The translations under genes were made by a program, and so were the position numbers. A stretch of 64,000 nt of DNA from Gemmatimonadota bacterium (GTDB lineage Bacteria > Gemmatimonadota > Gemmatimonadetes > Longimicrobiales > Gaopeijiaceae), in contig JAJDXM010000024.1 in the NCBI GenBank assembly GCA_022823225.1, positions 124,001 through 188,000 on the forward strand, in the 5' to 3' direction. Position 1 is the first letter of the stretch; each line of letters opens with the position of its first letter. Under the pieces are notes generated by a model. That model saw only the letters and a list, made by a program, of their open reading frames with translations. It had not been told where the DNA came from and searched no databases. This document shows, piece after piece, positions 777 to 45,173 of this stretch.

Positions 777-1259
777 ATGCTTGAAGCGATAAAGGCCAGG
801 ATATCGGACGAGGTCGAGGCGCTGACCCGCGAACTCAACGTCGAGCTTCCCGACCGGATCAAGAAGGCCGCCGAGTTGGGGGACCTGCGAGAGAACTCGG
901 AGTACAAGTCGGCGCTGGAGCGGCAGCAGTTCGTTCAGGCACGGATCGGACACCTGGCCTGGCGAATGTCGGAATTGTCGAAGATCGACGTGAAGGACAT
1001 CCCCTCGGACCGGGTGGGCTTCGGTTCGACTGTGCGCGTGCTGAACGTTGCGACCGACGAAGAGACGACCTTCACGATCGTCGCCGGGGATTACATCGAT
1101 CTCGACGCGGGACACATCTCCCTGGACTCGCCGCTCGGAAGGGGACTGCTCGGGGCTCGCCAGGGAGACGATGTCGACATCACGCTTCCCGCGGGCGAGC
1201 GCCGTTTCCGGGTGGTCGAGCTCACGACCCTGCCGCAACAGCTGGCAGCCCGTGGATAA
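777..1259 (+). CDS. greA: Transcription elongation factor GreA
   Basis: 160 residues, normal length for GreA. The protein rescues backtracked RNA polymerase by stimulating transcript cleavage through the secondary channel. The N-terminal coiled coil carries the family motif GDLRENSEYKSA (about residues 36-47), and the C-terminal half has the FKBP-like fold with the IVAGDYIDLDAG strand region. ATG preceded by a short GAGG Shine-Dalgarno element. GreB is less likely given length and sequence. Confidence 0.93.
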   Translation: MLEAIKARISDEVEALTRELNVELPDRIKKAAELGDLRENSEYKSALERQQFVQARIGHLAWRMSELSKIDVKDIPSDRVGFGSTVRVLNVATDEETTFTIVAGDYIDLDAGHISLDSPLGRGLLGARQGDDVDITLPAGERRFRVVELTTLPQQLAARG

Positions 1260-1375: not shown

Positions 1376-4030
1376 TCAGAAGCCCGGCGGCGGGGCGATC
1401 CGCGCCACGATCACGGCCACGTCATCGGGCACGCCGGCGTGGAAGATGGCGCCCGCACCCGCAGTCATTGCCTCGAAGTCGTGCATCCGTACGCCGCTGT
1501 CCCCCAGAAGGCCCCTGAACGAGGCTGCCTGACCGAGGACGACCGCCGCGACCGCGCTGGCGTCGTCGTCCCCGGTGAGCGTGACCGGCCACGGGTAACG
1601 CCCCGGGGGATCCGGGTTCACGAAGATCTCGGTTGCGGTGGGAAAGTCGTACGCCAGAAACCGCGGCGTGCGCTCGTCGGTCAGCCAGGGTTCGGAGCCG
1701 GCCACCGTCATCGCGATGCCGTGGTATTCGAGAAGCTCCGCCATCGAAACGCCGGTGACCGCCTCGAGCCCCTCCACCCCCGGAACAGTGAGCGAGTCGT
1801 TGAGCGCGGTCACCAGGGCCGGGTCGGCCGACGGGTCCGTTTCCCCCGCGGCTCCGGCCACCCAGTCCCGGACGAGGCGGTGAAAGTGCCACCCGCTTCC
1901 GTACACCGAGAACCTGAGCTGGATCTCGTAGGTTACCGCATTGGGGTCCAGGTGGAAGGCGTCCACGGTTCGGTCCATGAGGTTGCGGACCCCGTACGAT
2001 GCACGTGGGGCGTCCCGGAAGCCATCGCGCATCATGCTGCCGTCGACCCGGTCACCCCTGTCGGGCCCTCCCGCGCGCTCCCACGCCAGCCGCGAACTCA
2101 TCTCCTTCGCGATCTCGGCGGTTCCCTCCTCGATCCAGACGGGATGGAAGACATTCGAACCGGTGTTGCCGCGCCGCCGCTGGTTTATGTTGCGCTTATA
2201 GAGGCTGCTCACGTGCTTGACCTCGTGCACCAGCGCCGACAGCGCCCAATGGTTCCCGCCGGTGAACCGGAACGCGCCGGGGGTCATGTGCACGAGCTCC
2301 CTCTGGTTGGACGCGGCGCACTGCGTCGCCGAGTAGGTCATGTCGGCCGACCAGACGTAGGCCTGCACGCCGGGCAGGGTCGGGTCGACCAGGAGCGAGA
2401 TGCGCCCGTCGCCGTTCACGTCGCTGACCCCGCCGAAGTAGTCCTCGATCACCTCGACGCCGTGAGCCGAGTAGAAGTCGATGATCGCCTGCGCGTTGTC
2501 GACCGAGACCTTCGAGCCGCCCTCGACCGATTCGTAGACGGTGAAGTGGTCGTTCTCGGCGATCACGTCCGTGACCAGCGTCGTGTCCACCCGGCAGCTG
2601 AAGTTGTCGGAAATCTTGAAGGTGACGGGACTCGTGGGCGCGCGCTGCAGCTGCGCCGCCGGCTGGTCGGGGAGAATCTCCACCGGCCCCTCGGCGGAGA
2701 GTTCGCGGTGGAGTTCGGCTTCCCGCCGCCGGACCTGGCGGTGGAGCGCGGCGTTGGCCCGCTCGATCTGCCGGATGTCGCTCCAGTCGATGTCCGGTGC
2801 GGGCAGGTCGTCCGGTGTGCGCGCGGCGGCAACGGGGCCTCCGGGCGCCCCGGCCGGCGGACGCAGGGCGGCGATTTGCCCGAACGCCGCCGCCGTGCTC
2901 CCCGGCATCTCCTCCACAACCAGGTCCACGTTGCGAGACGACTCGCCGGTCCCGTCGAGGCTGGCGAAGGTGACGCGGTAGTAGGCACCGGCCGTGTCGG
3001 CCCGCAGGAAGAACCCGCACGGCTCCAGCGCCGCCGGGTCCACGATCCGGACATCTCCCAAGGCGAGCCCGAGCGGTCCGTAGCAGACGCGCAGGCCGAG
3101 GGCGACCCGCGCTTCATTGCCCTTCGAGTCGGTGAGCCGCAGCTCGACTTCGGAGGCCCCGGCCTCTTCCGGGGTTCCCTGCAGGATCCCGTCGGCGCCG
3201 ATCTCCAGCCCGGCCGGGAGCGTGGTGCCCTCAGCCAGGGACCACATGTATCCCTTGCGGGAGCCCCCCTTGGCCGAGAGCGTCTCCGCGTAGGGAAGGG
3301 TGACGCGCCCCTGCGGAAGTGCGTTGGTGAGAATCTCCAGCGGGGCGTCGACGCCGGTCACCGTGAAGTCCGTGGTCAGGGACTCGACCGTGGCGCGCAG
3401 CGTCTGCACGGAGTCCTCGCCGAGGGTCCAGTCGGTTCGGGCGATGCCGTCGGTGCCGGTATCGGCGGACTCCGGACTTATGCTGCCTCCCCCGGAGGTG
3501 ACCTCGAAGGTGACCGCGATGCGTGAAGCCGGGTTGCCGTTCGCGTCGACCACCCGCACGGCCGGAGACACGGGGAGCTTCTCGCCCAGGAACCCCTGCT
3601 GCCCGTCGCCCTCCGCGTTCTCGAGAGCACGCGGCACCTGCGTGACGGTGACCGGCACATCGCTGCCGACCCTGCCGGAGCGTGCCCGGATCTCGGCCTG
3701 ACCGGGGCCGGTGGAGGTCGCCAGGCCCGACGCGCGATCGATCGCCACGATCTGCGGATGAGTGCTTTCCCAGCTGACCGTCACGCCCGTCATTGCGCGC
3801 CCGTTCTGGTCCAGCACGGTGGCCTGGAACTGCTGCTGGTCCCCGACCGCGGTGAAGCTGGCGGAGGCCGGGGAAATGTTCACCGTGGTCGCGACCGCGG
3901 GGGGCTCGGGGGGCATGGGGTTGCCCCCATCCCCGCCTCCGCAGCCGGCGAAGACGAGCAGGGCGAGGCAACCGGCGAGGCACCGGAGGATCGGCTGGCC
4001 GGCGGCGGGCAACGTGCGGCGGATCATCAT
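1376..4030 (-). CDS. Secreted lipoprotein with Ig-like domains and an HExxH metalloprotease-like domain
   Basis: 884 residues. Lipoprotein signal with lipobox FAGC (Cys30). Three Ig-like modules follow: BIG2-like (about 46-130), BIG1-like (about 145-227) and a putative Ig domain of the He_PIG type (about 229-313). The C-terminal half has HEVKH near residue 600 followed by WIEEGTAE, the layout of gluzincin-type peptidases such as M30, and a calcium-loop-like DVNGDGRI. It probably acts outside the cell, anchored to a membrane. The start overlaps the stop of the upstream fusion gene by 4 nt (ATGA), so the two are translationally coupled. Peptidase activity is inferred; the substrate is unknown. 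Confidence 0.75.
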   Translation of the reverse strand: MMIRRTLPAAGQPILRCLAGCLALLVFAGCGGGDGGNPMPPEPPAVATTVNISPASASFTAVGDQQQFQATVLDQNGRAMTGVTVSWESTHPQIVAIDRASGLATSTGPGQAEIRARSGRVGSDVPVTVTQVPRALENAEGDGQQGFLGEKLPVSPAVRVVDANGNPASRIAVTFEVTSGGGSISPESADTGTDGIARTDWTLGEDSVQTLRATVESLTTDFTVTGVDAPLEILTNALPQGRVTLPYAETLSAKGGSRKGYMWSLAEGTTLPAGLEIGADGILQGTPEEAGASEVELRLTDSKGNEARVALGLRVCYGPLGLALGDVRIVDPAALEPCGFFLRADTAGAYYRVTFASLDGTGESSRNVDLVVEEMPGSTAAAFGQIAALRPPAGAPGGPVAAARTPDDLPAPDIDWSDIRQIERANAALHRQVRRREAELHRELSAEGPVEILPDQPAAQLQRAPTSPVTFKISDNFSCRVDTTLVTDVIAENDHFTVYESVEGGSKVSVDNAQAIIDFYSAHGVEVIEDYFGGVSDVNGDGRISLLVDPTLPGVQAYVWSADMTYSATQCAASNQRELVHMTPGAFRFTGGNHWALSALVHEVKHVSSLYKRNINQRRRGNTGSNVFHPVWIEEGTAEIAKEMSSRLAWERAGGPDRGDRVDGSMMRDGFRDAPRASYGVRNLMDRTVDAFHLDPNAVTYEIQLRFSVYGSGWHFHRLVRDWVAGAAGETDPSADPALVTALNDSLTVPGVEGLEAVTGVSMAELLEYHGIAMTVAGSEPWLTDERTPRFLAYDFPTATEIFVNPDPPGRYPWPVTLTGDDDASAVAAVVLGQAASFRGLLGDSGVRMHDFEAMTAGAGAIFHAGVPDDVAVIVARIAPPPGF

Positions 4031-6891
4031 CGCCCATCCAGGATCGCGTCATGGACGATGGGGCGAAGCAGCCCATCCACCTGCGCCGCACCGTACGGTT
4101 GCAGCTGCGTCCACGCCAGCGCAATGATCTCCTCCGCGGGATCGATCCAGAAATAGGTGCTCGCGATCCCGGACCACCAGTAGGTGCCCGGGTTCTCGCC
4201 GACCGACACGGCGAAGCCGAGCCCGAAGCCCTGCCGGCCGATCCCCGGCATGATGGGGATCATCTCGTCCGAGAGGTGGTTTCGGGTCATCAGCCGCACC
4301 GTTTCCGGCTGCAGGAGGCGCACCCCGTTTGCCTCTCCCCCGCCGAGAAGCATCTCGCAGAACCGCAGGTAGTCGGCTGCCGTCGAAGTGAGGCCGCCGC
4401 CGCCGGAGAACCAGCTCGGCGGACGGGTGTAGCGGTCGCCCTGGGGGGCGGGAGGCGCGAAGAGCCCGTCACGGGCGCGGTAGTAGAGCCGGGTGAGGCG
4501 GTCCACCTTGTCGGCCTCCACGTAGAAGCCTGTGTCGGTCATGCCGAGCGGCTCGAAGATACGCCGCCGGAAGAACTCGTCGAGGGTCTGGCCCGAGGCC
4601 ACCTCCACGACGCGTCCGAGCACGTCGGTGGACATGCTGTAGATCCAGCGCTCGCCGGGGTCGGCCGCCAGGGGGAGCGACGCGATCACCTCGGTCCGTC
4701 GCTCTAGGTCCGCCTCGCCCGCCGCGTCCAGCGCGCCGAGACTGGCCCGGTAGAGCGAATCGACCGGGGTGTTGCCGAACAGGCCGTAGGTGAGCCCCGA
4801 GGTGTGCGTCAGCAGGTCCCGGATGAGGATGGGCCGGGCGGGCGCGCGCAGCTCCCCGTCGTCGTGGACCTGCACGCCGGCGAAGGCGGGGATGACGCCG
4901 GAAAGCGGGTCGTCGAGGGAGAGGCGCCCCTCCTCGACGAGCATCATCGCGGCAACGCTGGTCACCGGCTTGGTCATCGAGAAGATGCGGAAGATGTCGT
5001 TCGGCTCGAGGGGGTCCTCGTCCAGGACGCGCCAGCCCTCGGCGTTCCAGTGCACGACCTCGCCGCGGCGCGCCACGAGCGTCATGATCCCTGCCGTGCG
5101 GTCGTTGCCGATGAAGTCCCGCATTGCCGGCCCGATGCGCGCGAGGACTTCGCTGGACAGGCCGACCTGTTCCGGAGGCGCCGTAGTGAGGTTCCGGCCC
5201 TCCTGTTGGGAGTCGGCGTCCAGGGCGAAGGTCCAGATGCCGGGGGCGAGGCCGTAGCTTGAGAGTCCCGCCGCGATGGACACGTACTGCTGCCCGTCCA
5301 CCTCGTAGGTCACCGGCGACGCCGGATCCGCGCCTATCTCGGCCGACCACAGTTCCTCGCCGGTCCGTGCGTCGAGGGCGGCCAGCCGCGCTCCCGTGCC
5401 CCAGAAGAGGAGTTGCCCCCCGGTGGCCATCGTGCCACCGTGGCCTTGCTCGGCAGGCACCCGCCATGCCTCGCGGTTCTCGGCCGGGTCCCACGCCAGA
5501 AGCACGTTGCCGGGGCCCTTGAGCGCGGGCCGCTCCGGGCGGTCCTCTCCGCTCGTGGTTCCGGTGTTCCACCTGCCCGCCCTGTACTCGAACTCTTCGG
5601 TCTTCTCGAAGTAGTAGTTGTTGTTGGTGGCCGGGATATACACGAGCCCGGCTTCGGGGCTCCACGACATCGGATACCAGTTGTGCGCACCGGCTGGTCC
5701 CGGAGCCAGGTAGACGCCCTTGCCGGTCATGCCGTAGCGGGCCTCGGGCGTCTCCATGGGCCGCCCGGTCGTCGGATCGACTCCGGTGGCCCAGGTGAGG
5801 TCGTCGGCGAAGGGCTCGGCCGAGATGAGTTCGCCGGTGAGCCGGTCCACGACGTAGAAGAACCCGTTCTTGGGCGCCTGCACGATTACCTGGCGCTCCC
5901 GGCCTCCGATCTCCAGGTCCAGCGCCATGAGCGGCTGGGTGGCCGTGTAGTCCCAGTCGTCGCCAGGCGTCGTCTGGTAGTGCCACCGGATGGCGCCGTC
6001 GGCAGGGTCCAGCGCCACGATCGACGAGAGGTACAGGTTGTCGCCGCCGCCGGGGCTGCGGTTGTCGCGGTTCCAGGGTGCCCCGTTGCCGGTGCCGATG
6101 TAGACCAGGCCGGCGTCCGGATCGGTTACGATGGCGTCCCAGACCGTGCCCCCGCCCCCAGCGACCCACCACTCGCCCGTCCACGTCTCGGCCGCGGCGC
6201 GCATGGCCTCGCTCTCGAAGCCGTCGGCCGGATTCCCGGGGACCGTGTGGGTGCGCCACAACTCGTCGCCCGAGTCGACGTGGTAGGCGGTGACGTAGCC
6301 GCGCACACCGTACTCGGCGCCCGCGTTTCCGATGATGACGGCGTCGCCGATCACCCGCGGCGCGCCCGTAATCGAGTAGTCGGAGCCGGGCGGGGTGGTC
6401 TGCACCGACCAGAGGAGCGACCCGTCGGTGCGGTTCAGCGCGACAAGCCTCCCGTCGAGGAGTCCCACGAAGAGCGTTTCGCCGTCGACCGCAACGCCCC
6501 GGTTCACGTCGCCGCAGCAGGTGGGGGGACCTCCCTTGCGCTCGTGCGGGATCGCCGGATCCCAGCGCCAGATCTCCTCGCCGGTCACGGCGTCCAGCGC
6601 AAATACGAAGCTGAACGCAGCGGTGCCGTAGAGCACCCCATCGACCACGATGGGGGTGGTCTCGAGCCGGGCGCCGGTCTTCGGAATCTCCCAGCTCCAG
6701 GCCACGCCGAGCCGCTCCACGTTCCCGGTGTTGATCCGGTCGAGCGGACTGTAGCGGGTCTCGGCGGCGTCCCGGCCATGCATCGGCCAGTCGGACTGTT
6801 GCGCGCCGGCGTCCGCGGCCAGGCCGCAAAGGGCTGGAGCGAGGAGGAGCAGTGCCGGCAGGGGACGGCCAGTGGCAAGGAGTGGCTTCAT
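4027..6891 (-). CDS. Fusion: quinoprotein (PQQ dehydrogenase-like) propeller plus serine beta-lactamase-family hydrolase
   Basis: 954 residues with an N-terminal signal peptide (cleavage after AGA/AQQ near residue 30). Residues about 30-560 are an eight-bladed quinoprotein propeller with repeated W-motif blades (LDAVTGEEIWRW) and the vicinal-cysteine motif TCCGDVNRG near residue 125. Residues about 570-954 are a class C beta-lactamase/esterase-like domain with SMTK (SxxK, near 639) and a YSM Tyr-x-Ser-type motif (near 749). Typical quinoproteins of this type carry a cytochrome c domain or end here; this one carries a hydrolase instead. Likely periplasmic. Coupled by ATGA overlap to the downstream metalloprotease-like gene. 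Domain calls are firm; the joint function is unknown. Confidence 0.85.
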   Translation of the reverse strand: MKPLLATGRPLPALLLLAPALCGLAADAGAQQSDWPMHGRDAAETRYSPLDRINTGNVERLGVAWSWEIPKTGARLETTPIVVDGVLYGTAAFSFVFALDAVTGEEIWRWDPAIPHERKGGPPTCCGDVNRGVAVDGETLFVGLLDGRLVALNRTDGSLLWSVQTTPPGSDYSITGAPRVIGDAVIIGNAGAEYGVRGYVTAYHVDSGDELWRTHTVPGNPADGFESEAMRAAAETWTGEWWVAGGGGTVWDAIVTDPDAGLVYIGTGNGAPWNRDNRSPGGGDNLYLSSIVALDPADGAIRWHYQTTPGDDWDYTATQPLMALDLEIGGRERQVIVQAPKNGFFYVVDRLTGELISAEPFADDLTWATGVDPTTGRPMETPEARYGMTGKGVYLAPGPAGAHNWYPMSWSPEAGLVYIPATNNNYYFEKTEEFEYRAGRWNTGTTSGEDRPERPALKGPGNVLLAWDPAENREAWRVPAEQGHGGTMATGGQLLFWGTGARLAALDARTGEELWSAEIGADPASPVTYEVDGQQYVSIAAGLSSYGLAPGIWTFALDADSQQEGRNLTTAPPEQVGLSSEVLARIGPAMRDFIGNDRTAGIMTLVARRGEVVHWNAEGWRVLDEDPLEPNDIFRIFSMTKPVTSVAAMMLVEEGRLSLDDPLSGVIPAFAGVQVHDDGELRAPARPILIRDLLTHTSGLTYGLFGNTPVDSLYRASLGALDAAGEADLERRTEVIASLPLAADPGERWIYSMSTDVLGRVVEVASGQTLDEFFRRRIFEPLGMTDTGFYVEADKVDRLTRLYYRARDGLFAPPAPQGDRYTRPPSWFSGGGGLTSTAADYLRFCEMLLGGGEANGVRLLQPETVRLMTRNHLSDEMIPIMPGIGRQGFGLGFAVSVGENPGTYWWSGIASTYFWIDPAEEIIALAWTQLQPYGAAQVDGLLRPIVHDAILDGR

Positions 6892-7089: not shown

Positions 7090-7617
7090 ATGAGAATCGC
7101 TCTTTCTGCCTGCGCGCTGCTCGTCGGCTGCGCGGACGCGCCCGAACCGCCGCCCTTCGCGGCCGTCGCCGACTCGCGCCAGCTGATGCTGTCGGTGATC
7201 GAGCCGGCCGCCGAGGTCTACTGGGATGCGGTGGGGACCATCATGGACCTCGAGGGCACCTACGAAATCGAGCCGCGAACGGCGGAGGAGTGGGAGGCGG
7301 TCGTGAACGCGGCCTACCTGATCGCCGAGTCCGGCAACCTGCTGCTGATGGATGAGCGGGCCCAGGGACGGCCGCACTGGACCGCCATGTCCCGCTCGAT
7401 GATCGACATGGGGCGCAGGGCCGTGAGAGCGGCCGAACTGCGCGACCCGCAGGCCGTCTTTGAAGTGGGCGGCGACGTGTACCTGGTCTGTACCGGATGC
7501 CACGCCGTCTACGCCACCGAGACCCTGCGTCCCAACTACGACATTGGCGCGGACACGGCGGTCGAGGCGGCTCCACCCCGGGAGCCCGCCGCCGGCTCCA
7601 GCCGCGAGCACCCTTGA
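7090..7617 (+). CDS. Mono-haem cytochrome-like lipoprotein
   Basis: 175 residues. Begins with a short lipoprotein signal (lipobox LVGC), then a helical domain with a single haem-binding CTGCH motif near the C-terminus, an arrangement like cytochrome c' four-helix proteins. Probably a periplasmic membrane-anchored electron carrier. Its stop overlaps the TTG start of the following DUF6644 membrane protein (TTGA), so it heads a three-gene operon with two membrane proteins that may form its quinone-side partner. The partner role is inference. Confidence 0.7.
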   Translation: MRIALSACALLVGCADAPEPPPFAAVADSRQLMLSVIEPAAEVYWDAVGTIMDLEGTYEIEPRTAEEWEAVVNAAYLIAESGNLLLMDERAQGRPHWTAMSRSMIDMGRRAVRAAELRDPQAVFEVGGDVYLVCTGCHAVYATETLRPNYDIGADTAVEAAPPREPAAGSSREHP

Positions 7618-8171
7618 TCGAGCGATTCCTCGGCTGGCTCGGCGAAACACCCTGGAGCGTCGCGCTCCTCGAGTCGCTCTACGTCTGGCCCCTGGTCGAG
7701 TCGACGCACGTTCTCACCCTGGCCCTCTTCGTCGGCACGACCGTCATGATGGACCTTCGGCTCCTTGGGGTGGCCTTCCGGAAGGTCCCCATCACGTCAT
7801 TTACCGGTCGCCTTCTGCCATGGACGCACATCGGGTTCATCATCATGACCTTGACCGGGCTCCTTCTCTTCTACTCGCAGCCGCTGCGCTACTACCACAA
7901 CCTCTTCTTCCGCGTCAAGGTGCTGGTGCTGCTGCTGGCGGGCGCGAACGTCGCCATCTTTCACAACGGCGTTCACCGCAACGCGGCGGAGTGGGACAGC
8001 GATGCATCACCACCCCGCGCGGCACGGATCGCCGGCGCGGTGTCGCTGGCCGTCTGGACCATCGTGGTGGTCACGGGCAGGCTCATCGCATACAACTGGT
8101 TCGACTGCGACATCCAGCCGCAGCCCGCATGGGTCAACTGGGTTGCCGGTTGCGCCGCAGTGACGGAGTAG
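7614..8171 (+). CDS. DUF6644-type membrane protein, copy 1
   Basis: About 185 residues starting at TTG, overlapping the previous stop by 4 nt (TTGA). At least four hydrophobic segments, an ESLYVWPLVESTHVLTL opening and an LRYYHNLFFRVKVLVLLLAGANV region shared with its neighbour. Members of this family are uncharacterised inner-membrane proteins with conserved histidines in the membrane, often beside cytochromes. Together with the haem lipoprotein upstream it probably forms a membrane redox unit. Confidence 0.72.
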   Translation: MIERFLGWLGETPWSVALLESLYVWPLVESTHVLTLALFVGTTVMMDLRLLGVAFRKVPITSFTGRLLPWTHIGFIIMTLTGLLLFYSQPLRYYHNLFFRVKVLVLLLAGANVAIFHNGVHRNAAEWDSDASPPRAARIAGAVSLAVWTIVVVTGRLIAYNWFDCDIQPQPAWVNWVAGCAAVTE

Positions 8172-8178
8172 CAACGCC

Positions 8179-8649
8179 ATGCTCGAGCCCTTCTTCCGCT
8201 GGTGCGAGGCGAGCGCGATCGGCAGGGCGGTGGCCGAATCGGTGTGGGCGTTCCCGATCCTGGAGGCGGTGCACCTCCTGGGCCTGTGCATGCTGGGCGG
8301 TGCCGTGCTGGTGGTTGACCTGAGGCTTCTCGGCGCGGGACTCACCGGCCAGTCGGTCGCCCGCCTTTCCCGTTACGCCCGGCCCTGGCTGGTCGCCGCC
8401 CTGGTGGTAATGGTTCTGACCGGGGTGCCCCTGTTCCTCTCGGAGGCGATCAAGGCGTACTACAACACCTCGTTCTGGGTGAAGATGTGCACCTTGCCCG
8501 TCGCGCTGACCTTCACCTTCGCGGTGCGTGAGCGCGTGGCCCGCCGAGAGGACCCCGTCCCTGACGCTCTGGGCCGGCTGGTCGGAGCCGTATCGCTGGC
8601 GCTGTGGTTCACCGTGGCGGCCGCGGGGCGCTGGATCGGGTTCTCGTAG
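8179..8649 (+). CDS. DUF6644-type membrane protein, copy 2
   Basis: 156 residues, paralogue of the preceding gene: both share an opening of the form ESxxVWPxxExxHxL, an LRLLG motif and a YYxNxFxVK segment. Four predicted membrane segments. It follows 7 nt after the previous stop, so the two are co-transcribed. Likely a heteromeric pair produced by tandem duplication. Function unknown. Confidence 0.72.
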   Translation: MLEPFFRWCEASAIGRAVAESVWAFPILEAVHLLGLCMLGGAVLVVDLRLLGAGLTGQSVARLSRYARPWLVAALVVMVLTGVPLFLSEAIKAYYNTSFWVKMCTLPVALTFTFAVRERVARREDPVPDALGRLVGAVSLALWFTVAAAGRWIGFS

Positions 8650-11208: not shown

Positions 11209-13071
11209 TCAGTTGCCCGCTCCACCAGGATCGTTCACCCCGAACGCCAGCAGCAGATTGCCGGGCATCTGGCCGAAGGTGGCGTAGCCGCTGTTGACGA
11301 AGAGCGTGCCGCCGGCCACCACGGGTCCGGGCCCGTCGATCGCGCCGCCCCGCCCCGGCACGCCGCCCACCGTTTCGACGGGCTGCGTCGTGTCGAACTC
11401 CCAGATCACCCGGCCGTCCTCGGCGGAATGTGCACGGATGAAGCCGTCCAGTCCGCCGGCGAAGACCACGCCGTCGATCGAGGTGACCCCCGCCGAGTTG
11501 CTGGAGTAGCAGCGTCTCCTGCCCTCACAGGCCTCCTCGGGCATCGTCGCTCTCCAGACCACCTCGCCCGTCATGAGGTCCAGAGCGTACAGGCCCGGCG
11601 ACAGTTCCCGGTCCGGGTTCACGTCCACGATCACGGCGTTGCGGTCCGCGTTGGGCGCGTAGGCGTAGCGGCCATCGGTGGCCATGCCCCAGTGGATCCC
11701 TCCGAGGGCGCTGCCCTTGCCGACCGCCGTCGACCACAGCAGCGCGCCGTCGTTGTCGGGATCGAGCGCCCACACGTCGCCGGACTTCTGCCCCGCGACC
11801 AGGATCTCCTTGCCGTCGGGGCGGGTGACCAGCATCGGCGCCATCCCGAAGTCCAGATCGGGCCCCGGGGGATTGGGGCAGTTGTCGCGGTTTGCGGGCT
11901 GTGTGCAAGCCATGTTGAAGGCGTCGCCGGCGGTCGCCTGGAACGACCAGGCCAGCTCCCCCGTCTCGAGGTCCAGCGCCAGGATCGCGTCGCTCGACTC
12001 GGTGGTGGGGTGGGTCAGATTCTCGCCGGTTCCGGCGTAGAGGAGCCCGCGGGCGGGGTCGATGGTGGGACTTGACCACACGGCGGCGCCGGACGGGCCC
12101 CAGGTCGTGGTTCCGGCCCCGTTCTGCCCCGTCTCCTCCGGATAGCCGGGGATGACGCGGTGGTACCAGAGGACATCCCCCGTCGCGGCGTCCAGGGCCG
12201 CAACCGCCCCGGAAGAGGTGCAGCATTCGTAGCGCGGATTGCCCGCGACGCTCACCTCGAGCGAGGAGACGGGAACGTAGAGCCGGCCGTCGTGCAGGGC
12301 CGGGCTGCCCGTCCCGTAGGCCACGGCGTGCCAGCCGACCCGGACCCGCCACACCAGCGAGCCGCTCTCCAGGTCGACGGCGTAGGCGTTGGTGCGCGAG
12401 TCGACGAAATACGCGGTCGAGCGGCCGTCCGGTCCCTCACCGACCGTGATGGCGCCGCGGACCGTCGCGTCGGCCTCGAAACCCCACCGCACACACCCGG
12501 TGGCCAGGTCCAGTGCCATCACCTCGCCGAAGGGCCCGGCCACGAGGGCGGCGTCCCCGGCGACCGCGGGCGAGGTGCGCATGCCTGTGCCGCCCGGAAA
12601 GGCGAAGGCCCAGCGCAACTCGAGGTTCGGCACGTCGGCGGCGGTCAGCCCGGCGCGCTGCGGAGGCTGGTAGCCGGTGCCGGCCAGGTTGCCCGCGAAT
12701 CCCATCCAGGAGACCGCGGCCGGGTCCATGCCGGTCCAGGGGAGCCCGGAGCAGAAGGTGGACTCCGGGACGGGCACCGCCTCGTACCGGCGTCGGGTCA
12801 GGTACTCCGCCACACCGATGCGCTGCTCGCGTGTCAGGTCCGCCCCCTCCGCGCGCATCACCCCGTCCTCGAGTGAGGCCACGATGGCGCGCGGGGTGAG
12901 CTGCCGGAGGAGGCTGACCCCCGGTGTTCGCTCGGTGCCGGCGGGCGTGTGGCAGCTGGCGCATGCCGCCTCGAAGATCTCTTCGCCTGTCTGGGGGTGC
13001 GCGGGGGTCCAGGAGGCCAGCCATGCGAGGACGGTGAAGACCGTTGCGGTCGCGGTGGAGCGGGGCGTCAT
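11209..13071 (-). CDS. Cytochrome c-quinoprotein (PQQ polyvinyl-alcohol-dehydrogenase-like)
   Basis: About 620 residues from ATG 13071; a start at 13131 would add 20 residues ahead of the signal peptide. Signal peptide, then a cytochrome c domain with CASCH (residues 37-41), then a quinoprotein propeller with repeated LDLATGCVRW-type blades and a vicinal Cys pair in YECCTSSGA. The order haem first, propeller second matches PVADH-type dehydrogenases, which oxidise alcohols in the periplasm and pass electrons to the haem. The natural substrate cannot be read from sequence. Confidence 0.8.
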   Translation of the reverse strand: MTPRSTATATVFTVLAWLASWTPAHPQTGEEIFEAACASCHTPAGTERTPGVSLLRQLTPRAIVASLEDGVMRAEGADLTREQRIGVAEYLTRRRYEAVPVPESTFCSGLPWTGMDPAAVSWMGFAGNLAGTGYQPPQRAGLTAADVPNLELRWAFAFPGGTGMRTSPAVAGDAALVAGPFGEVMALDLATGCVRWGFEADATVRGAITVGEGPDGRSTAYFVDSRTNAYAVDLESGSLVWRVRVGWHAVAYGTGSPALHDGRLYVPVSSLEVSVAGNPRYECCTSSGAVAALDAATGDVLWYHRVIPGYPEETGQNGAGTTTWGPSGAAVWSSPTIDPARGLLYAGTGENLTHPTTESSDAILALDLETGELAWSFQATAGDAFNMACTQPANRDNCPNPPGPDLDFGMAPMLVTRPDGKEILVAGQKSGDVWALDPDNDGALLWSTAVGKGSALGGIHWGMATDGRYAYAPNADRNAVIVDVNPDRELSPGLYALDLMTGEVVWRATMPEEACEGRRRCYSSNSAGVTSIDGVVFAGGLDGFIRAHSAEDGRVIWEFDTTQPVETVGGVPGRGGAIDGPGPVVAGGTLFVNSGYATFGQMPGNLLLAFGVNDPGGAGN

Positions 13072-13134
13072 GGGCAGCGTCCGGTTGAGTGGAGCCGACG
13101 CGGTCGGTTGGAAGAGATGGCTCCCGGACACGAT

Positions 13135-36941: not shown

Positions 36942-38078
36942 GTGGCGAAGAGACTGACGGCAGCGTTCGTGCGGAGCGCCAAGCCAGGCCGCTACTACGA
37001 CGAGCATGGCCTGATGCTGCGGGTGCTGCCCACGGGCGCCAGGCAATGGGTCTGGCGGGGCACGGTCCGGGGCAAGCGTGTGGACCTGGGGCTTGGCGGG
37101 TTTCCCTACACCAGCTTGGCGGAAGCCAGGGAGACGGCCTTCGAGTACCGGAAGCTGGCCCGGGCCGGTGGTGACCCGCGGGCGGCGCCGGCGGCCGCGC
37201 CCACCTTCGAGGACGCGCTCGAGGAGGTCCTTGCGATCCAGCGGCCGTCGTGGCGGCCGGGCAGCCGGAGCGAGGCCCAATGGCGGGCGTCACTACGCAT
37301 GTACGCGCTTCCGAGGCTCGGCGAGATGCCGGTCGACCAGATCACCACGGCCGACGTGCTGGCCGTGCTGGTGCCGATCTGGAGCACGAAGCGCGAGACG
37401 GCGCGCCGTGTGCGGCAACGGATCGGGGCGGTGATGAAGTGGGCGGTCGCCAACGGCCACCGCGCGGACAATCCCGCCGGCGGCGCGATCGCCGCGGCAT
37501 TGCCGCAGGGCGGCGTGCGGCGGAAGCACTTCCGGGCGCTGCCCCACGCCGAGGTCGCGGCGGCCGTCGAAGCGGTGCGGAAGTCCAGCACCGGGATCTC
37601 AACCAGGCTGGCGCTCGAGTTCCTGGTCCTGACGGCGGTCCGGTCCGGAGAGGTGCGCGGCGCGCGGTGGGACGAGATCGATGTCGGGGCCGCCACATGG
37701 ACGGTTCCGGCCGAGCGCACCAAGTCCGGCCGGGAGCACCGTGTCCCGCTGTCTGGACGGGTGCTCGCCGTGCTACGGAGCGCAGAGGGGATCGGCGACG
37801 GGTCTGGTCTGGTATTCCCGTCGGCGACCGGCGGGGTGATCGCCTCGACCACCTTGGCGAAGGCCGTCCGCGACCTGGGCCTCGACTGCGTGCCGCACGG
37901 GTTCCGGACCAGCTTCCGCGTGTGGTGCGGCGACACGGGGGTCGATCGGGAGGTCGCGGAGGCTGCTCTGGCTCACGTCGTCCGGAACAAGGTGGAGGCG
38001 GCCTACGCGCGCGGGACGCTGTTCGAGCGCCGGCGCGAGGTCATGGAGGCGTGGGCCGTCTACGTCACGGGTGGATGA
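36942..38078 (+). CDS. P4-type tyrosine integrase
   Basis: 378 residues, GTG start with weak Shine-Dalgarno. N-terminal DUF4102-like arm-binding domain (KRLTAAFVRSAKPGRYYDEHGLMLRVLPTGARQWVWR), core-binding domain, and catalytic domain with Arg in AVRSGEVRGARW (about 233), HGFR box (about 319) and Tyr in AAYARG (about 354). Complete set of catalytic residues, so probably active. It integrates or excises the adjacent element. A decayed relative is at 33170. Confidence 0.92.
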   Translation: MAKRLTAAFVRSAKPGRYYDEHGLMLRVLPTGARQWVWRGTVRGKRVDLGLGGFPYTSLAEARETAFEYRKLARAGGDPRAAPAAAPTFEDALEEVLAIQRPSWRPGSRSEAQWRASLRMYALPRLGEMPVDQITTADVLAVLVPIWSTKRETARRVRQRIGAVMKWAVANGHRADNPAGGAIAAALPQGGVRRKHFRALPHAEVAAAVEAVRKSSTGISTRLALEFLVLTAVRSGEVRGARWDEIDVGAATWTVPAERTKSGREHRVPLSGRVLAVLRSAEGIGDGSGLVFPSATGGVIASTTLAKAVRDLGLDCVPHGFRTSFRVWCGDTGVDREVAEAALAHVVRNKVEAAYARGTLFERRREVMEAWAVYVTGG

Positions 38079-38082
38079 AGCC

Positions 38083-38277
38083 ATGATGGGCGAGCGCGAA
38101 TGCAAGCTCGTCGCGGAGTTCATCGAGTCGGAGTATCGACGGATGTTTCCGCGTCCGCCCGAGGAATGGAACACTGAAGAGCAGCGCCACTCGTCGCGGC
38201 TGTCCTGCCGCCCCTGCCGGAGATCACACCGGGCAGTGAGGGCAGCGCGATGGCTGTCAACCCCTCCGCGCGGGTGA
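38083..38277 (+). CDS. Hypothetical small protein
   Basis: 64 residues beginning 4 nt after the integrase stop. First half (ECKLVAEFIESEYRRMFPRPPEEW) is protein-like; the second half is Arg/Ser-rich and may be a frameshifted tail. No family recognised; low confidence. Confidence 0.35.
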   Translation: MMGERECKLVAEFIESEYRRMFPRPPEEWNTEEQRHSSRLSCRPCRRSHRAVRAARWLSTPPRG

Positions 38278-38340
38278 TGTCCACCGCCGTTTTCGCTATG
38301 TTCATGTGCTCGCTTTTTGGTCGATAGAGCAGTAGTGATG

Positions 38341-38381
38341 GGTCGCGGGGGGGTCTTCCGCTTGCTTGCCCTCCCGCGACC
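38341..38381. terminator. GC hairpin after the integrase region
   Basis: Arms GGTCGCGGG and CCCGCGACC, 23-nt loop, no clear U-tract. Possible transcription stop before the replication genes. Confidence 0.4.
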
Positions 38382-38459
38382 ACCCACTACATCGCGGTTC
38401 GGAAGGCCGCACTGGGCCAAAAAGTACCGACCTCAAGGCAAGTGGAAGGGCTCCCAATC

Positions 38460-38960
38460 ATGGGACTCAAGCAGCAATCGCAGACCGAGCACCTAACTCT
38501 ACGCGAAGTGCCACGCTGCCTGGACCGCCACGCGGGCTTTGCCGAAGAACTGCGATCTCTCCCGCCGGACGAGGCCGTACGGCTGATCCGGCTCCAGATA
38601 ATCACGGATCGGATCTTCGATCGCGTGGTGCGGCGAGACGAGCGCGCGCGGTGGCGGGAGCAGTCGGCGCCACCGCCGGGGGGCGATCACTGCCGCCCGC
38701 TGATTTTCCTCGCAGTGCCCGGGCGGCTGGGAGCACGACGGGGCGGGGGCGACGACGACCTCGGAGCCAGCGGCGAGTCGCCATTCTGCCATTGCGTGCG
38801 TGCGGAGGCCATCGGTAAGCAACTGCCGGTGGCCTCTCTCTGTACGTGCCCGCGTGACCCGCTCGCGGCGGAAATCACACCGGGCATCGAGGCGCGGAGA
38901 CGCCCGGTGCGGCGGATGCAAGCGGAGTGGGCCGCGGAGAGGAGGGCATCATGGGACTGA
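38460..38960 (+). CDS. Hypothetical element protein preceding primase
   Basis: 166 residues from ATG 38460. Starts GLKQQSQTEHLTLREVPRCLDRHAGFAEELRSLPPDEAVRLIRL; C-terminal part has scattered Cys. Overlaps the primase-helicase start by 10 nt, so the two are coupled. May assist replication; no family recognised. Confidence 0.5.
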   Translation: MGLKQQSQTEHLTLREVPRCLDRHAGFAEELRSLPPDEAVRLIRLQIITDRIFDRVVRRDERARWREQSAPPPGGDHCRPLIFLAVPGRLGARRGGGDDDLGASGESPFCHCVRAEAIGKQLPVASLCTCPRDPLAAEITPGIEARRRPVRRMQAEWAAERRASWD

Positions 38961-41206
38961 CCACGACAGCCCAAGACTGGCTTGACGCCCTCCACGCGAG
39001 TGGATGGCAAGGCCGAAAGGCGGGCTCCAAGCGCTGGCGAGGGCCGTGCCCGGTCTGTGGCGGCGAGGCCAAGAGTCGCAGGTTCTGGGTCGAGCAGGGA
39101 GATGTCCAGGTGTTGGCAGGCTGCAATAAGGGCTGCGACTTCGAGGCGCTTGCCGAAGCGGTGGGAGCCGTCCCGAACGGCTCGGCACCTGCCCAGCCGA
39201 CGGCGGCCCAACGCGGTGCCGTAGCTGAGACGCAGCGTAGGAATCTGAAGCGCCTGCGGCAGCGATGGGAGGAAGCGATCCCCCTCAAGGACACCCTCCA
39301 CCCCTACCTCGAGGCCAAGGGATTTGACGGCCCGCCGCCCGGGCTACGGACGGACGGCGAGACACTGCTCGTGCCGATGCGCGATTCTGAGCGCCGGGTG
39401 ATGGGCCTCCAGCAGATATGGGGTACCCGCTCCAGGTATCGGAAGCAGTTTCAGAAGGGGAGCCAGCCGAGCGGCACCTACTTCGCCGTGGCGCCCCGAC
39501 AGGATTCCGCCCGAATCTACATCGCCGAGGGCCTCGCCACCGGCCATACCGTCGCGCTTGCGATGCCGGATGCGGCGGTCGTGATCGCTTTCACGGCCGG
39601 CAATCTGGCCTCCGTCGCCAGAACGCTACGGACCAAGTACCCGGACAAAGAGCTGGTCATTGCCGCAGACAACGACCGATGGAAAGACCCCGCCAAGAAC
39701 CCCGGCGTGACGGCGGCGAAGCTCGCCGTGCTAGAGGTGAAGGGCTGCCAGATAGCTATTCCGGACTTCGCGGACCTCAGCGACGTGCAGCCCGGCGAGA
39801 AAGGACCGACCGACTACGACGACCTGCGGATGCGCGAGGGGCTCGACGCCGTGCGGCGGTGGCTGGATCCGGCCATGGCCGATCAGGCCGTCACCGAGCA
39901 GCCGGCCGCAGACGAAGCGGAAGCGGAGCCCGCACCGGCAGAGTCTCCAAATGCCGGCGACGATCAGTCGCTGATCATCATCCCCCGCACATCCGCCGGC
40001 CTGGAAACGGCGTTGAATCACTTCGGGATCTCGCTCCGGTGGAACCTGCGGGGGCGCCGCATGGAGTTCCGCGAGGGTGACGGCGAGTGGGAACCCGAGA
40101 CGGACCGCTATATCGATCACCTGATAGACCGGGTGGCCGACCGCTTCAAGTTCAAGTCCAACAACCCGGAGTCGAGCGGGCTGCAAGCCGCCCGCTTCGG
40201 ACTGCAACGGTTCGGGCAAGCCGTCAACTCCCTCGCCTACACCCGTGAGACCGACACCTTCCTCGACTATCTGGCGGCCCTTCCGGAGTGGGACGGCATC
40301 AAACGGTTGGACTCCCTGCTCAGCGATCTGTTCCACATCCCGGGCGATCGCGAGCTGGCCGCATGGGCCAGCCGGTTCCCATACATGGGCGCCGTCACCC
40401 GGACGCTCCGCCCAGGAAGCCAGTTGGATGAAACGCCGGTCTTGATCGGCGGTCAGGGCATCGGCAAGTCCACCGCTTGCCGTCTCGGTCTCGAGGACCC
40501 CGCATGGTTCGGCGACTGCTTCGACTTCTACGCCACTGTGAAGGAGCAAGCCGAAGCGACCGCCGGATGCGTCATTGTGGAGATCTCCGAAATGGTCGGT
40601 TCGAAGCGTGCCGACATAGTCCGGATCCGTGCAGCCATGACGCGTTTGGACGACGGCCAGCACCGGGCCGCCTACGCTCGGGCCAAGGAACCCGCACCGC
40701 GCCGGTTCGTATTCGTCGGTACTGCGAACGACGATGAGACGCTTCCCAACGACCCGCACGGCAACCGCCGCTTCGTTGCCGTCAGGATCGAGCCCCGGCC
40801 GGATATGCCGGTCGCGGACATTCGCGAGTACCTGATCAAGTACCGGGACCAACTGTGGGCCGAGGCCCTCCACCGGATCAATGCCGGCGAGGAAGCCCGC
40901 TTGCCCGACCGACTGTTCGACAAGCAAGCCGAAGTGAACGAGGACCACCGACACAAAGATCCGTTGGTGGAGGACGCACTCGACATCTGGCTGGCAGAGT
41001 CATACACCGGCCCGTTCAAGCTCGCAGACCTGATCAGGGGCCTCAACCAGTCCAACGACGCGAGCGTGAGCATGAAGCATGACTCGCGCCGTCTCTCGGC
41101 AATGCTCACCAACCGGAAACTCCTCAAGTGCAAGCACTGCACCTGCACCGGGGAACAGCGGACCCGTCGGTGGGCCAAGCCTGCCGACTGTCGGAAACGA
41201 AGCTGA
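38951..41206 (+). CDS. Primase-helicase: zinc finger, Toprim and VapE-like ATPase
   Basis: 751 residues, ATG with GAGGAGGG upstream. CHC2-like zinc finger (C33, C36, C58, C62), Toprim domain with E193 in IAEGLATG and acidic AADND near 240, then a VapE-like superfamily 3-type helicase with Walker A GGQGIGKST near residue 500 and VEISEM as probable Walker B. Such proteins initiate replication of satellite phages, PICI-type islands and plasmids. The C-terminus KLLKCKHCTCTGEQRTRRW is a likely winged-helix tail. Strong sign that the element replicates itself. Confidence 0.87.
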   Translation: MGLTTTAQDWLDALHASGWQGRKAGSKRWRGPCPVCGGEAKSRRFWVEQGDVQVLAGCNKGCDFEALAEAVGAVPNGSAPAQPTAAQRGAVAETQRRNLKRLRQRWEEAIPLKDTLHPYLEAKGFDGPPPGLRTDGETLLVPMRDSERRVMGLQQIWGTRSRYRKQFQKGSQPSGTYFAVAPRQDSARIYIAEGLATGHTVALAMPDAAVVIAFTAGNLASVARTLRTKYPDKELVIAADNDRWKDPAKNPGVTAAKLAVLEVKGCQIAIPDFADLSDVQPGEKGPTDYDDLRMREGLDAVRRWLDPAMADQAVTEQPAADEAEAEPAPAESPNAGDDQSLIIIPRTSAGLETALNHFGISLRWNLRGRRMEFREGDGEWEPETDRYIDHLIDRVADRFKFKSNNPESSGLQAARFGLQRFGQAVNSLAYTRETDTFLDYLAALPEWDGIKRLDSLLSDLFHIPGDRELAAWASRFPYMGAVTRTLRPGSQLDETPVLIGGQGIGKSTACRLGLEDPAWFGDCFDFYATVKEQAEATAGCVIVEISEMVGSKRADIVRIRAAMTRLDDGQHRAAYARAKEPAPRRFVFVGTANDDETLPNDPHGNRRFVAVRIEPRPDMPVADIREYLIKYRDQLWAEALHRINAGEEARLPDRLFDKQAEVNEDHRHKDPLVEDALDIWLAESYTGPFKLADLIRGLNQSNDASVSMKHDSRRLSAMLTNRKLLKCKHCTCTGEQRTRRWAKPADCRKRS

Positions 41207-41209
41207 AAG

Positions 41210-41260
41210 AGTGGGCGGCAAGCGGGCGGCAAGCGGGCGGCAAGTGGGCGGGGTCGGTTT
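41210..41260. repeat. Tandem 11-bp repeat
   Basis: Four consecutive units close to GCGGGCGGCAA directly after the primase-helicase stop. Confidence 0.75.
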
Positions 41261-41663
41261 CGCGGTCACCCCCTACGGGGGTGCGGTGGAAGTGGGCGGG
41301 GTCGGGCGCCATCTCTTAAGGGGGAATGGCTGTTCACGTGAAGAAACGGGTACCCTTAAGGGGAGCCGCCCACCCCGCCCACCCCGCCCACCCCGTTCCA
41401 CTCGCTGCCCCTCCGGGGGCCGATTCAAGGCTTGGTCACGCACACGACGGGAGGCAGCCCGTGACTCTGAACACGACCCTGCCCCCATGGCGATTCGACA
41501 CACCGTGCAACCTGTGAGGCCACAGCACTCCATCCGGAGGCGACACGGGTGGGCCCACCGGGGGCACGGCGAAAAAAGGTTACGGTTCTCGTTTGCGCCC
41601 CGAATCGCGCCCAGACCCCCCCCTCCCCTCCCCGATTCGCACTATAAAGGCCCGTTTTTCACC

Positions 41664-41777
41664 GTCACAGACGTCACAGTGTCACAGGGGGAGGGGGATA
41701 AGGGCTTCGTGGAGGCGCGAAACTGGTGTGACGCTCGGGGGTCTCGAAAAGGGCCTGAACGTCACACACCGTCACAC
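41664..41777. repeat. Iteron-like GTCACA cluster
   Basis: GTCACAG at 41664, 41673 and 41681, GTCACAC at 41761 and 41771, and an inverted copy (GTGTGACG) near 41726. Regular short direct repeats close to a primase-helicase gene fit an initiator-binding origin. Confidence 0.5.
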
Positions 41778-41994
41778 GGCGGGGGTTTCGGCCCTATGTG
41801 TAGGGTTGGGCCGCCTCGCGCTCGTAGGCGCATGCGACGTGGGCGTGCGCGACGTGCGCGCGCGCGAGGTCTCCCCTTTGATTCGGGCCGGATCGGGCGG
41901 CTCGGGGCCGAGCCTGACCGTAACACGGTTCCGAGACGCCCGTCCGTGCCGCTCAGCGCCCTTCTGGCGGGCCGGGATCGTGGGTCTCGCCCCC

Positions 41995-42110
41995 ACCTCG
42001 CCCGCGTGTTGCCCATGCGTGGAGGGTCACCATGGGCCGTGGTCGTGCCCGAGCACCATGGTTCAGGGCGCTGGTGGTCCAGCCGACGTCCAGCCGGGGC
42101 CGTGGGCGGG
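41995..42110. repeat. Dispersed repeat, copy A
   Basis: Contains CCTCGCCCGCGTGT, GGAGGGTCA, GGGCCGTGGTCGTGCCCGAG and GGCGCTGGTGGTCCAGCCGA. Copies B and C follow. Confidence 0.75.
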
Positions 42111-42749
42111 GTGAAGGGGTGGGCATGATGAGAGTAGGTTGACATCGCTCGCTCACCGACCGCTATCGCTCCCGACCCCGACCTCGACGAGGGAGGGGGA
42201 GGGGAGCGGCGGGGTGCCGGGAAGGCGTTCCCGGACCCCCTTGCTCCCTGACGTGGCAAGAAGCCACCTCGGATCCGTCCGAAGAGCCCCCCTGCCCCGG
42301 CGACGCTTTGATGCCGGTAGCAACCGACGGCGACGGCCTCATGGCCCACCAAGGCTTACCACGACCGTGTGTTTGCGGGCCGCGCCACTCCGAATGGTGT
42401 GTTAGTCATAGTAGGGGGTTGGTGGCTTCGTGAAGGTGCGAACAGGAAGAGGCTGGGGATTGGAAACTAGACACCCGGGCGGTTTCGCCCCTTCGTGAAG
42501 GCGGGAGGCTACCCGCACGGCGGATCGAAGGGCGGCTGCGTCCACCGGAAGAGAGTGCCAATTGTCGGCCAGCCAGGCCATGCGCGGCGGCGATTGGCGA
42601 GAATATTACGGTCAGCGCCGAGGGCCTTTTTGGCCCCGAGACCCCCCCAGACCGCCCCCAAACACACTCATGTGGGGTAACTCCCTTCAACTTCTCTAGA
42701 CAGTCATGACAGGGTAAGGGGATGAGGGCTAAGAGTAGGGCCGAAAGGC

Positions 42750-42791
42750 GTCTAGGTAGAGGGTCATTTTCACCTAGACACCGGAAATGAC
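42750..42791. repeat. Interlocking palindromes
   Basis: GTCTAGGT (42750) pairs with ACCTAGAC (42772) and GTCATTT (42763) pairs with AAATGAC (42785), so the two inverted repeats interdigitate. Both cannot form as hairpins at once, suggesting a switch or protein-binding site. Confidence 0.55.
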
Positions 42792-42834
42792 ACCTAGTAC
42801 GGCGATGGGGTTTCACGGCTTCATGTAGGCTTGG

Positions 42835-42864
42835 CTCGCGCGCGCGGGGGCGCGCCTCTTACCG
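42835..42864. repeat. CG-run repeat, copy 1
   Basis: CTCGCGCGCGCG, GGGGCGCGCC and TTACCGG in series; second copy at 43634-43667. Confidence 0.65.
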
Positions 42865-43073
42865 GTAGGTATAGAGTACCGGAGACCCTCTAAACACCGG
42901 AAGGCGGCTCAGGTGGGCCGGATCGGGCCGGATCGGGCCGCAGGAGGGGGTGGATCGACCCGCTTCCCGGCGCACCGGACGGCTCGGGCGGCCCGAGCGA
43001 GCCCGAGGGTGGACGGAGACGCCCGCAGACGCCCGCCGGATGGTCGGTGGGCCGTCTGCCGCCCGTCTGCCGC

Positions 43074-43182
43074 ACCTCGCCCGCGTGTGCCGCTGTGTGG
43101 AGGGTCACGGTGGGCCGTGGTCGTGCCCGAGCCAACCCATGGTCAGGGCGCTGGTGGTCCAGCCGACGTCCAGCCGGGGCGT
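43074..43182. repeat. Dispersed repeat, copy B
   Basis: Closest match to copy A, including GGCGCTGGTGGTCCAGCCGA and GTCCAGCCGGGG. Confidence 0.75.
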
Positions 43183-43633
43183 GTGGGGTGGGGTGGGGGC
43201 AGATGGGGCGCACATCGAGGGTCTGGCGAGGCGCAGCGGGTGGCGGGGCGGCGGGTGGGCCGTCCTCCCTCCGCCAGCTCGGGACGCCCGGGCCGGAGGG
43301 GCGTTCGTTCGCCCTGGGTCGCCCGCTGGCCGCTTCACGACCGGAATACGCGCCGGTTCGTACCCCCTCACGGGGGGCGGGCGTCCGGGCCAATCCGGAC
43401 GCCCGAAACATTACGGTGCCCCCGGAAACGGCCCCTCCACCCCCCCTTCCCCCCTTCCAAAGCATCCCAATGGGGTATATCCCTCTCATTTACCGTTCCA
43501 TCGTCGCCAAGAGAGTACAAAACACCATGGGAAGGGCAGAACGATGGGAACGGTCGGCGCCGATTTGAGCGTACCCGTCGGATGTTGTTCCACCGTACCC
43601 GGATTTGCACACCTCCCCATCGGACGGGGGGCG

Positions 43634-43667
43634 TCTCGCGCGCGCGCAGGGGCGCGCCCCTTACCGG
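43634..43667. repeat. CG-run repeat, copy 2
   Basis: Same series as 42835-42864. Confidence 0.65.
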
Positions 43668-43793
43668 AGTGTATGAGGGTTACCGGAAGGGGCGGGCCGG
43701 ACGGAGGGCGAAACCGTCACCTCGTCCGGCGCATCGGGCCGTTTCGGGGCCGAGCCTGAGCCCGAGTGTGCCCGCATCCGGCTCGTCCTGCCC

Positions 43794-43880
43794 GCCTCGC
43801 CCGCGTGTGCCCATGCGTGGAGGGGTCTCAGGGGGCCGTGGTTGTGCCCGAGCCCTTGGCCCCCCCATGGCCGACCGGCC
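43794..43880. repeat. Dispersed repeat, copy C (partial)
   Basis: Shares the CGCCCGCGTGTGCCCATGCG and GGCCGTGGTTGTGCCCGAGC segments; abuts the stop of the recombinase gene. Confidence 0.6.
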
Positions 43881-43881
43881 C

Positions 43882-44910
43882 TCAATCGGACGACCGCCGG
43901 TAGTACCGAGCCACGGCACCATTCGCCGCGGACTGCCCACGGCTGTAGTGCGCCGGCATCCGTGCTGCCTTCCACCTCCCGACTACCATCAGATCGGTGG
44001 TGGAGGCTCCGGCCTCGACGAGATCGATCGCCATTCCCACTCGCGGCGAGTGCCCCTTGAATTCGCCCTTCAGGCCGGCGGCCTTGGCGGCGGCGGCGAT
44101 GCGGCGGTTGACGGTTTCGCCGGTCTGGATTCCGAAGACGCTCTGCGCGGCGATCGCGGCTTCGTCTTCGTCGTCGGGCCGAATGTCCATGAGCGCGGCG
44201 GCGGCGTCGGATCCGATGAACTGGACGGCCCCGGTCCCTTCCTGATCCGTCTTCGAGCGCCGAATGGTCACGAGTGCGTTGCCGTCGTCGCGGAACTCGA
44301 TGTCGGCCCAGGTCAGCGCGACGGCTTCGGACCTGCGGAGCAGCGCGTCGCGCATCACGGCGATGAGTGCAATGTCCACCTTGCCCCGGCGCTCGGCGGT
44401 CTTCTCGGACTCCCGGGCTCCGCTGCGAAAGACGCGGCGCCGGAGAGCGGTGGCGCGGATCGCGCTGAGGTGCTGGGCGGTGAGCCCGGCCGCCTGGCCT
44501 CGCCCCTGTGGAGTCTCCGAGGCCGCGGCCCTGCGGCCCAGCCCGCGGAGCACGCGGCCAACGCCAGCCGACTGCGTCGGGCTCTCGAAGCCGCGAAGCT
44601 GGTGAACGTGACGGATGCTTGCGCGATCGACTTTCAGTGTGGGGAACGTCCTGCCGTCGTCCGCGCGCTTGGCGAGATAGGCCGCGACGGTCTGCGGGGC
44701 GGCCGGCAAATCCTGATAGCCCTCTTCCTCGCACCACATGGCGAACTGCTTCCACGCCGCTTCGTAGGCGCGGCGGGTCGCAGGGGAGTGGGACTCGACG
44801 GCCGCCGAGACGACGGCTTCGGCGTGCGATTCCTTCAGGTCGGAACCGGCCGAGTCAGCTTGGACGGGCGAGACCGTCGGGTCGGTCGGTCTGTTCGGGG
44901 TCGTGGACAT
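43882..44910 (-). CDS. XerD-like tyrosine recombinase
   Basis: 342 residues from ATG 44910 with GAGAGGAG upstream. Core-binding SAM-like domain (SPATRRAYEAAWKQFAMWCEEEG) and catalytic domain with Arg in LLRRSEAVALTW, Lys in RRSKTDQEG, HSPR box and Tyr in PAHYSRG. Different type from the P4 integrase. Typical for plasmids and cassette-carrying elements, where it resolves dimers or recombines DNA. Downstream of the whole small-gene array. Confidence 0.88.
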   Translation of the reverse strand: MSTTPNRPTDPTVSPVQADSAGSDLKESHAEAVVSAAVESHSPATRRAYEAAWKQFAMWCEEEGYQDLPAAPQTVAAYLAKRADDGRTFPTLKVDRASIRHVHQLRGFESPTQSAGVGRVLRGLGRRAAASETPQGRGQAAGLTAQHLSAIRATALRRRVFRSGARESEKTAERRGKVDIALIAVMRDALLRRSEAVALTWADIEFRDDGNALVTIRRSKTDQEGTGAVQFIGSDAAAALMDIRPDDEDEAAIAAQSVFGIQTGETVNRRIAAAAKAAGLKGEFKGHSPRVGMAIDLVEAGASTTDLMVVGRWKAARMPAHYSRGQSAANGAVARYYRRSSD

Positions 44911-45173
44911 GGATGATCGTGCTCCTCTCTCGCGGGTCTGGTGGTTCCGTGGGTGTCGCGGCCTTACGCTCCTGCGGCCAGCCATCTGGCGATGAATCGG
45001 CGGGCGACCGGCACGTGCTCCTCGAGGGGGAAATGTCCTTGTAGAGCGACGTGTCGCGGTCGGCAGGGAGATGCCGGGGGAATGACCCCCGGCACCCCGT
45101 TGGGGTTTCCTGACTGGACGGCAGCCGTCATCGCGGGTCAGGTCCGCGCACCGGATCCGGCTGCAGGGACCGC
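44911..45173. other. Gap between array and recombinase with hairpins
   Basis: No gene seen. Holds the hairpin 45072-45094 and, next to it, ACCCC-GTT-GGGGT (45094-45106). Confidence 0.4.
45072..45094. terminator. Perfect hairpin after the last array gene
   Basis: TGCCGGGGG, loop AATGA, CCCCCGGCA. No U-tract. Likely ends or processes the array transcript before the recombinase gene. Confidence 0.5.

Follow-up and report, generated by a model that had tools for sequence, protein, structure and literature searches.

Type II quinohemoprotein alcohol dehydrogenases (ADHs), e.g., ADH-IIB (PDB 1kv9), 1kb0, and 1yiq, combine an 8-bladed propeller bearing the PQQ/Ca residues with a C-terminal cytochrome c domain. 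In the lanthanide-type PQQ ADHs (XoxF/PedH), an extra Asp lies two residues past the catalytic Asp. The family VIII esterases can be recognised by short motifs: subfamily VIII.1 has SxxK, Y-x-x, W-x-G, and GGxG without KTG, and the class C beta-lactamases carry Y-A-N and K-T-G (table in PMC9795927). Many Gram-negative bacteria with PQQ enzymes import the cofactor rather than make it (PMC12124388). Here, we describe a gene of Gemmatimonadota that joins a propeller related to the type II ADHs to a hydrolase with family VIII.1 motifs. The fusion is a new domain architecture built from two known enzyme families, and no published description of a propeller-esterase fusion was found in the literature searched.

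The gene lies on the minus strand of the window (the whole stretch of 64,000 nucleotides analysed), at positions 4027 to 6891, and encodes a single exported protein of 954 aa. From the N-terminus, and on the same strand, this protein consists of a signal peptide (residues 1–30, read from the sequence and ending in AGAQ; 6802–6891), the propeller (residues ~35–557; 5221–6789), an interdomain linker (residues 558–572; 5176–5220), and the hydrolase domain (residues ~573–950; 4042–5175). The two Pfam matches, PQQ (E 3e-73) and Beta-lactamase (PF00144, E 1e-67, residues 591–934), fall in one frame and are both far above the cut-off. The N-terminus shows little conservation and rapid evolution, as judged from the alignment and the substitution rates, and the linker is variable in length and sequence, with elevated dN in many pairs. 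The open reading frame, the Pfam and TIGR03075 matches, and the alignment of homologues bear out the initial annotation, which had claimed a full propeller and a serine hydrolase in one exported protein.

The fusion was found in frame and at full length in 20 of the genus's 23 genomes (counting G000), the other copies being 72–82% identical to that of the window, and it lies within the single-contig assemblies G001 and G022. One further genus (Gemmatimonadota/Longimicrobiales) carries it in a stop-to-stop frame of 1025 aa (G030), which is the 21st aligned protein. A stop or frameshift at the join had been named as the point to check, and there is none in the 21 aligned homologues. A chimeric assembly or a missed stop codon, i.e., two neighbouring genes read as one, is thus extremely improbable: nothing was found in its favour, the identical in-frame join recurs in the 20 congeneric genomes and in G030, and the alignment reveals no further signal peptide where the two domains meet. 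Since independent assemblies carry the fusion, we consider this artefact refuted. The loci similar to the fusion come from MAGs of Gemmatimonadetes, Gemmatimonadota, or Longimicrobiales, and among 395 genomes drawn evenly from the phylum, with two candidates scored per genome, the fusion was confined to this genus, G030, and G271. The latter genome (genus g12; C63 and C97) has a fused copy (74%) together with a lone propeller that shows the contig coordinates and score of the one in G033, and its estimated contamination is 3%. For these reasons, its fused copy may be foreign, possibly through contamination of the assembly. From isolate names and the literature on Gemmatimonadota, the host group may be one of marine bacteria associated with sponges.

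The propeller half resembles the type II quinohemoprotein ADHs in sequence and fold. It passes the curated cut-off of TIGR03075, the model of methanol/ethanol-type PQQ dehydrogenases (543.9 bits against 480.05), and the solved structures closest to it are type II quinohemoprotein ADHs. An AlphaFold model is mostly above 85 in pLDDT over residues 30 to 560, approximately, and finds 1kv9 as its best PDB match, along with 1yiq and 1kb0. Alignment to 1kv9 and 1kb0 identifies a set of core residues that we take, by analogy with methanol dehydrogenase, to form the PQQ/Ca site. All 24 fused proteins keep E77, the vicinal cysteines Cys125-Cys126 over the PQQ site (6514–6519), R131, T175, GA191-192, T249, W251, N269, the predicted catalytic residue and Ca ligand Asp314 in WDYT (5950–5952), K341, N404, and W405; E193 is kept in 23 and is D in the remaining one. 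The residue two positions past Asp314 is Thr316 in all 24, so the propeller would be of the Ca type, and a lanthanide-type enzyme (XoxF/PedH) is not supported because the extra Asp is absent. Unlike the type II ADHs, the fusion has an esterase in place of the cytochrome c domain, as CxxCH occurs nowhere in the 954 aa. It also differs in two Trp of the PQQ pocket, which are replaced by G at 483 and by L at 543; both positions vary in part of the cytochrome-bearing relatives as well.

The hydrolase half carries SMTK at residues 638–641 (4969–4980) and YSM at 751–753 (4633–4641), where the initial annotation had placed a class C-like domain on the strength of these two motifs. It further has WSG at 906–908 (4168–4176) and GGGG at 830–833. 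Within the 21 aligned fused proteins, SMTK, Tyr751, W906, and G908 are invariant. GxSxG is absent, and so is K-T-G, since the single K-T-G in the 954 aa belongs to the propeller (residue 71). By motif, the domain is a predicted family VIII.1-type carboxylesterase. The class C-like assignment therefore holds for the serine hydrolase of beta-lactamase fold and fails for class C itself, which was rejected on the YSM and WSG motifs and on the score of the NCBIfam model bla_class_C (27 bits against a cut-off of 415). As a predicted family VIII-type esterase, the domain would also fit the suggested ester cleavage better than the label of beta-lactamase does.

The solved structures closest to this half are EH7 (7pp3, E 9e-83), a family VIII.1 carboxylesterase, and the carboxylesterase 4ivi; it shares their SxxK, Y-x-x, W-x-G, and GGxG and their lack of GxSxG and KTG, and differs from family VIII carboxylesterases in being attached behind a quinoprotein propeller. 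The nearest named family is the methyl acetate hydrolase AcmB (NF052559), the best NCBIfam model for the hydrolase and a match for all 10 members tested, and the score of 210.9 bits against a cut-off of 550 leaves the domain outside it. The AlphaFold model is mostly below 50 in pLDDT over the esterase half because the supplied alignment is shallow there, and a search of viral contigs yielded just three distant loci with which to deepen it. With model confidence this low, it is the sequence on which the assignment of the fold is based.

Purifying selection acts on both domains. In eleven pairs of fused genes (Nei-Gojobori), dN/dS was 0.07–0.16 for the propeller and 0.09–0.22 for the esterase, whereas the values for the linker and the signal peptide were mostly higher and noisy. 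The low values in both domains indicate that both halves are being maintained.

The initial annotation had not considered that the genus lacks recognisable PQQ biosynthesis genes. None of the 23 genus members has pqqC, no pqqE scored above the cut-off in the genus, and pqqB was found in none of the four genomes tested (G000, G001, G018, G022); as positive controls, PqqC, PqqE, and PqqB were all found in two genomes from other families of the order. This sets the host of the fusion apart from type II quinohemoprotein ADHs, and it implies that PQQ, if used, must be scavenged. No PQQ importer was identified, and the TonB receptor at 60372–63125 matches siderophore/heme receptor models only below the cut-off. 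The absence of these genes, together with the two replaced pocket Trp, could be taken to mean that the propeller is an empty quinoprotein, which no longer uses PQQ and serves the esterase for binding or as a scaffold. The propeller is also homologous to the acido-empty-quinoprotein group A (TIGR04528), to whose model it shows sub-threshold similarity. However, its score is far below the cut-off (331.9 bits against 650) whereas TIGR03075 is passed, the fused proteins retain the core ligands of PQQ and Ca along with the vicinal cysteines, and the constraint on the propeller equals that on the esterase. We thus regard the loss of PQQ use as improbable. The genus offers a clear added case of conserved PQQ-type enzymes in the company of no recognisable PQQ synthesis genes.

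The genes around the fusion are partly conserved. Divergent from it, on the plus strand, lies a syntenic gene for a c-type cytochrome lipoprotein (7090–7617), identified by CTGCH in its translation and without a Pfam or NCBIfam match. It is followed on the same strand by two DUF6644 membrane proteins (7617–8649), about 30–35% identical to each other and kept with the cytochrome in nearly all syntenic loci. The pair and the lipoprotein look like a small electron-transfer module. On the other side, the next downstream gene (1376–4030, minus strand) encodes a secreted Big_1/Big_2 protein, supported by family match and synteny. The stop of the fusion overlaps its start by 4 bases (4027–4030), which suggests that the two form one operon in this genome; several congeners have a gap between them. 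This protein contains HEVKH, a zinc-protease-like motif, and has no peptidase family match. Beyond it, greA (777–1259, plus strand) marks the syntenic locus.

The closest propellers outside the phylum end differently. We scanned GTDB genomes with propeller peptides as seeds and counted the best 80 loci listed: 64 propellers have a CxxCH tail, the top three loci carry the esterase, and the remainder without CxxCH end alone or are cut. This agrees with the earlier contrast with cytochrome c, in that the nearest non-Gemmatimonadota propellers end in this domain in 64 of the best 80 loci listed. Within the family, the nearest propellers end alone, near the residue where that of the fusion ends, and propellers without esterase occur in several genera. 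The esterase also exists as a separate protein, which has a signal peptide itself, in two members of the genus (G003, G015) and in other genera (G027, G032, G033). In G003, G027, G032, and G033, its neighbours are the divergent cytochrome gene and the DUF6644 genes that also lie beside the fusion, and in G003 and G015 it adjoins greA, i.e., it occupies the locus of the fusion (the short contig of G015 does not cover the cytochrome side). A lone propeller adjoins greA in G047, and genus g12 (G033) has propeller and esterase as separate genes. In the lone esterase of G015 (L058), the third motif has changed from W-x-G to G-A-G.

The esterase tree places G003/G015 and G033 inside the fused group, which forces at least three changes of state, and the propeller tree groups the fused copies with some of the lone ones in a cluster whose branching is not resolved. 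The leader 5' of the start codon can be aligned between the lone esterase of G033 and the fused gene of G014. These data fit an old fusion followed by losses of one half, and a second fusion or a transfer may instead account for G030 and G033. The locus is a natural system for studies of domain gain and loss.

The function we favour, with some reserve, is that of a bifunctional periplasmic esterase and Ca/PQQ alcohol dehydrogenase. The N-terminal half would be a dehydrogenase that descends from the type II quinohemoprotein ADHs and has no cytochrome c domain, and the C-terminal half a family VIII.1-type serine carboxylesterase acting through Ser638, Lys641, and Tyr751. Environmental PQQ would be scavenged and loaded into the propeller, the esterase would cleave a small ester, and the freed alcohol, or another one nearby, might be oxidised at the PQQ site. 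Since the propeller has no cytochrome domain, a separate electron acceptor would be needed, presumably a cytochrome c, and the neighbouring lipoprotein (7090–7617) is a possible candidate.

It is plausible that both halves work on one ester in sequence. Each half is also found alone, and two congeners have the esterase alone at the same locus, which means that the coupling is not obligatory; nor is it demanded by the neighbourhood, as the cytochrome gene is conserved also at loci without the propeller. The most specific version of the proposal, a one-polypeptide converter of esters to aldehydes (or acids) that passes the freed alcohol to its own PQQ site in symbiont-type bacteria living on scavenged PQQ, is one that we put forward tentatively, as a possibility. 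If it is true, the ester-to-aldehyde pathway functions only within a PQQ-producing community. Two working enzymes might instead be tethered for shared export or co-expression, with unrelated substrates, as a convenience and not as a substrate channel. The independent existence of the halves in relatives, the two congeners that retain just the esterase, and the varying length and sequence of the linker are in line with such tethering. Yet, 20 genomes have kept the fusion, with both halves under strong purifying selection, and genus g12 (G033) has both parts as separate genes, so that propeller and esterase are compatible partners. We consider simple tethering rather unlikely. The fusion provides a natural test case for whether ester hydrolysis is coupled with PQQ-dependent alcohol oxidation.

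Two other features of the window deserve mention. The conserved neighbourhood includes a second quinoprotein (11209–13131), with an N-terminal cytochrome c and a PQQ-type propeller that scores below the cut-off of TIGR03075. Further away, within a window that has no tRNA gene in its 64,000 nt, the region from 36942 to 45393 is likely an integrated element; it encodes an integrase (36942–38078), a VapE/Toprim protein (38945–41206), and a second tyrosine recombinase (43882–45393).
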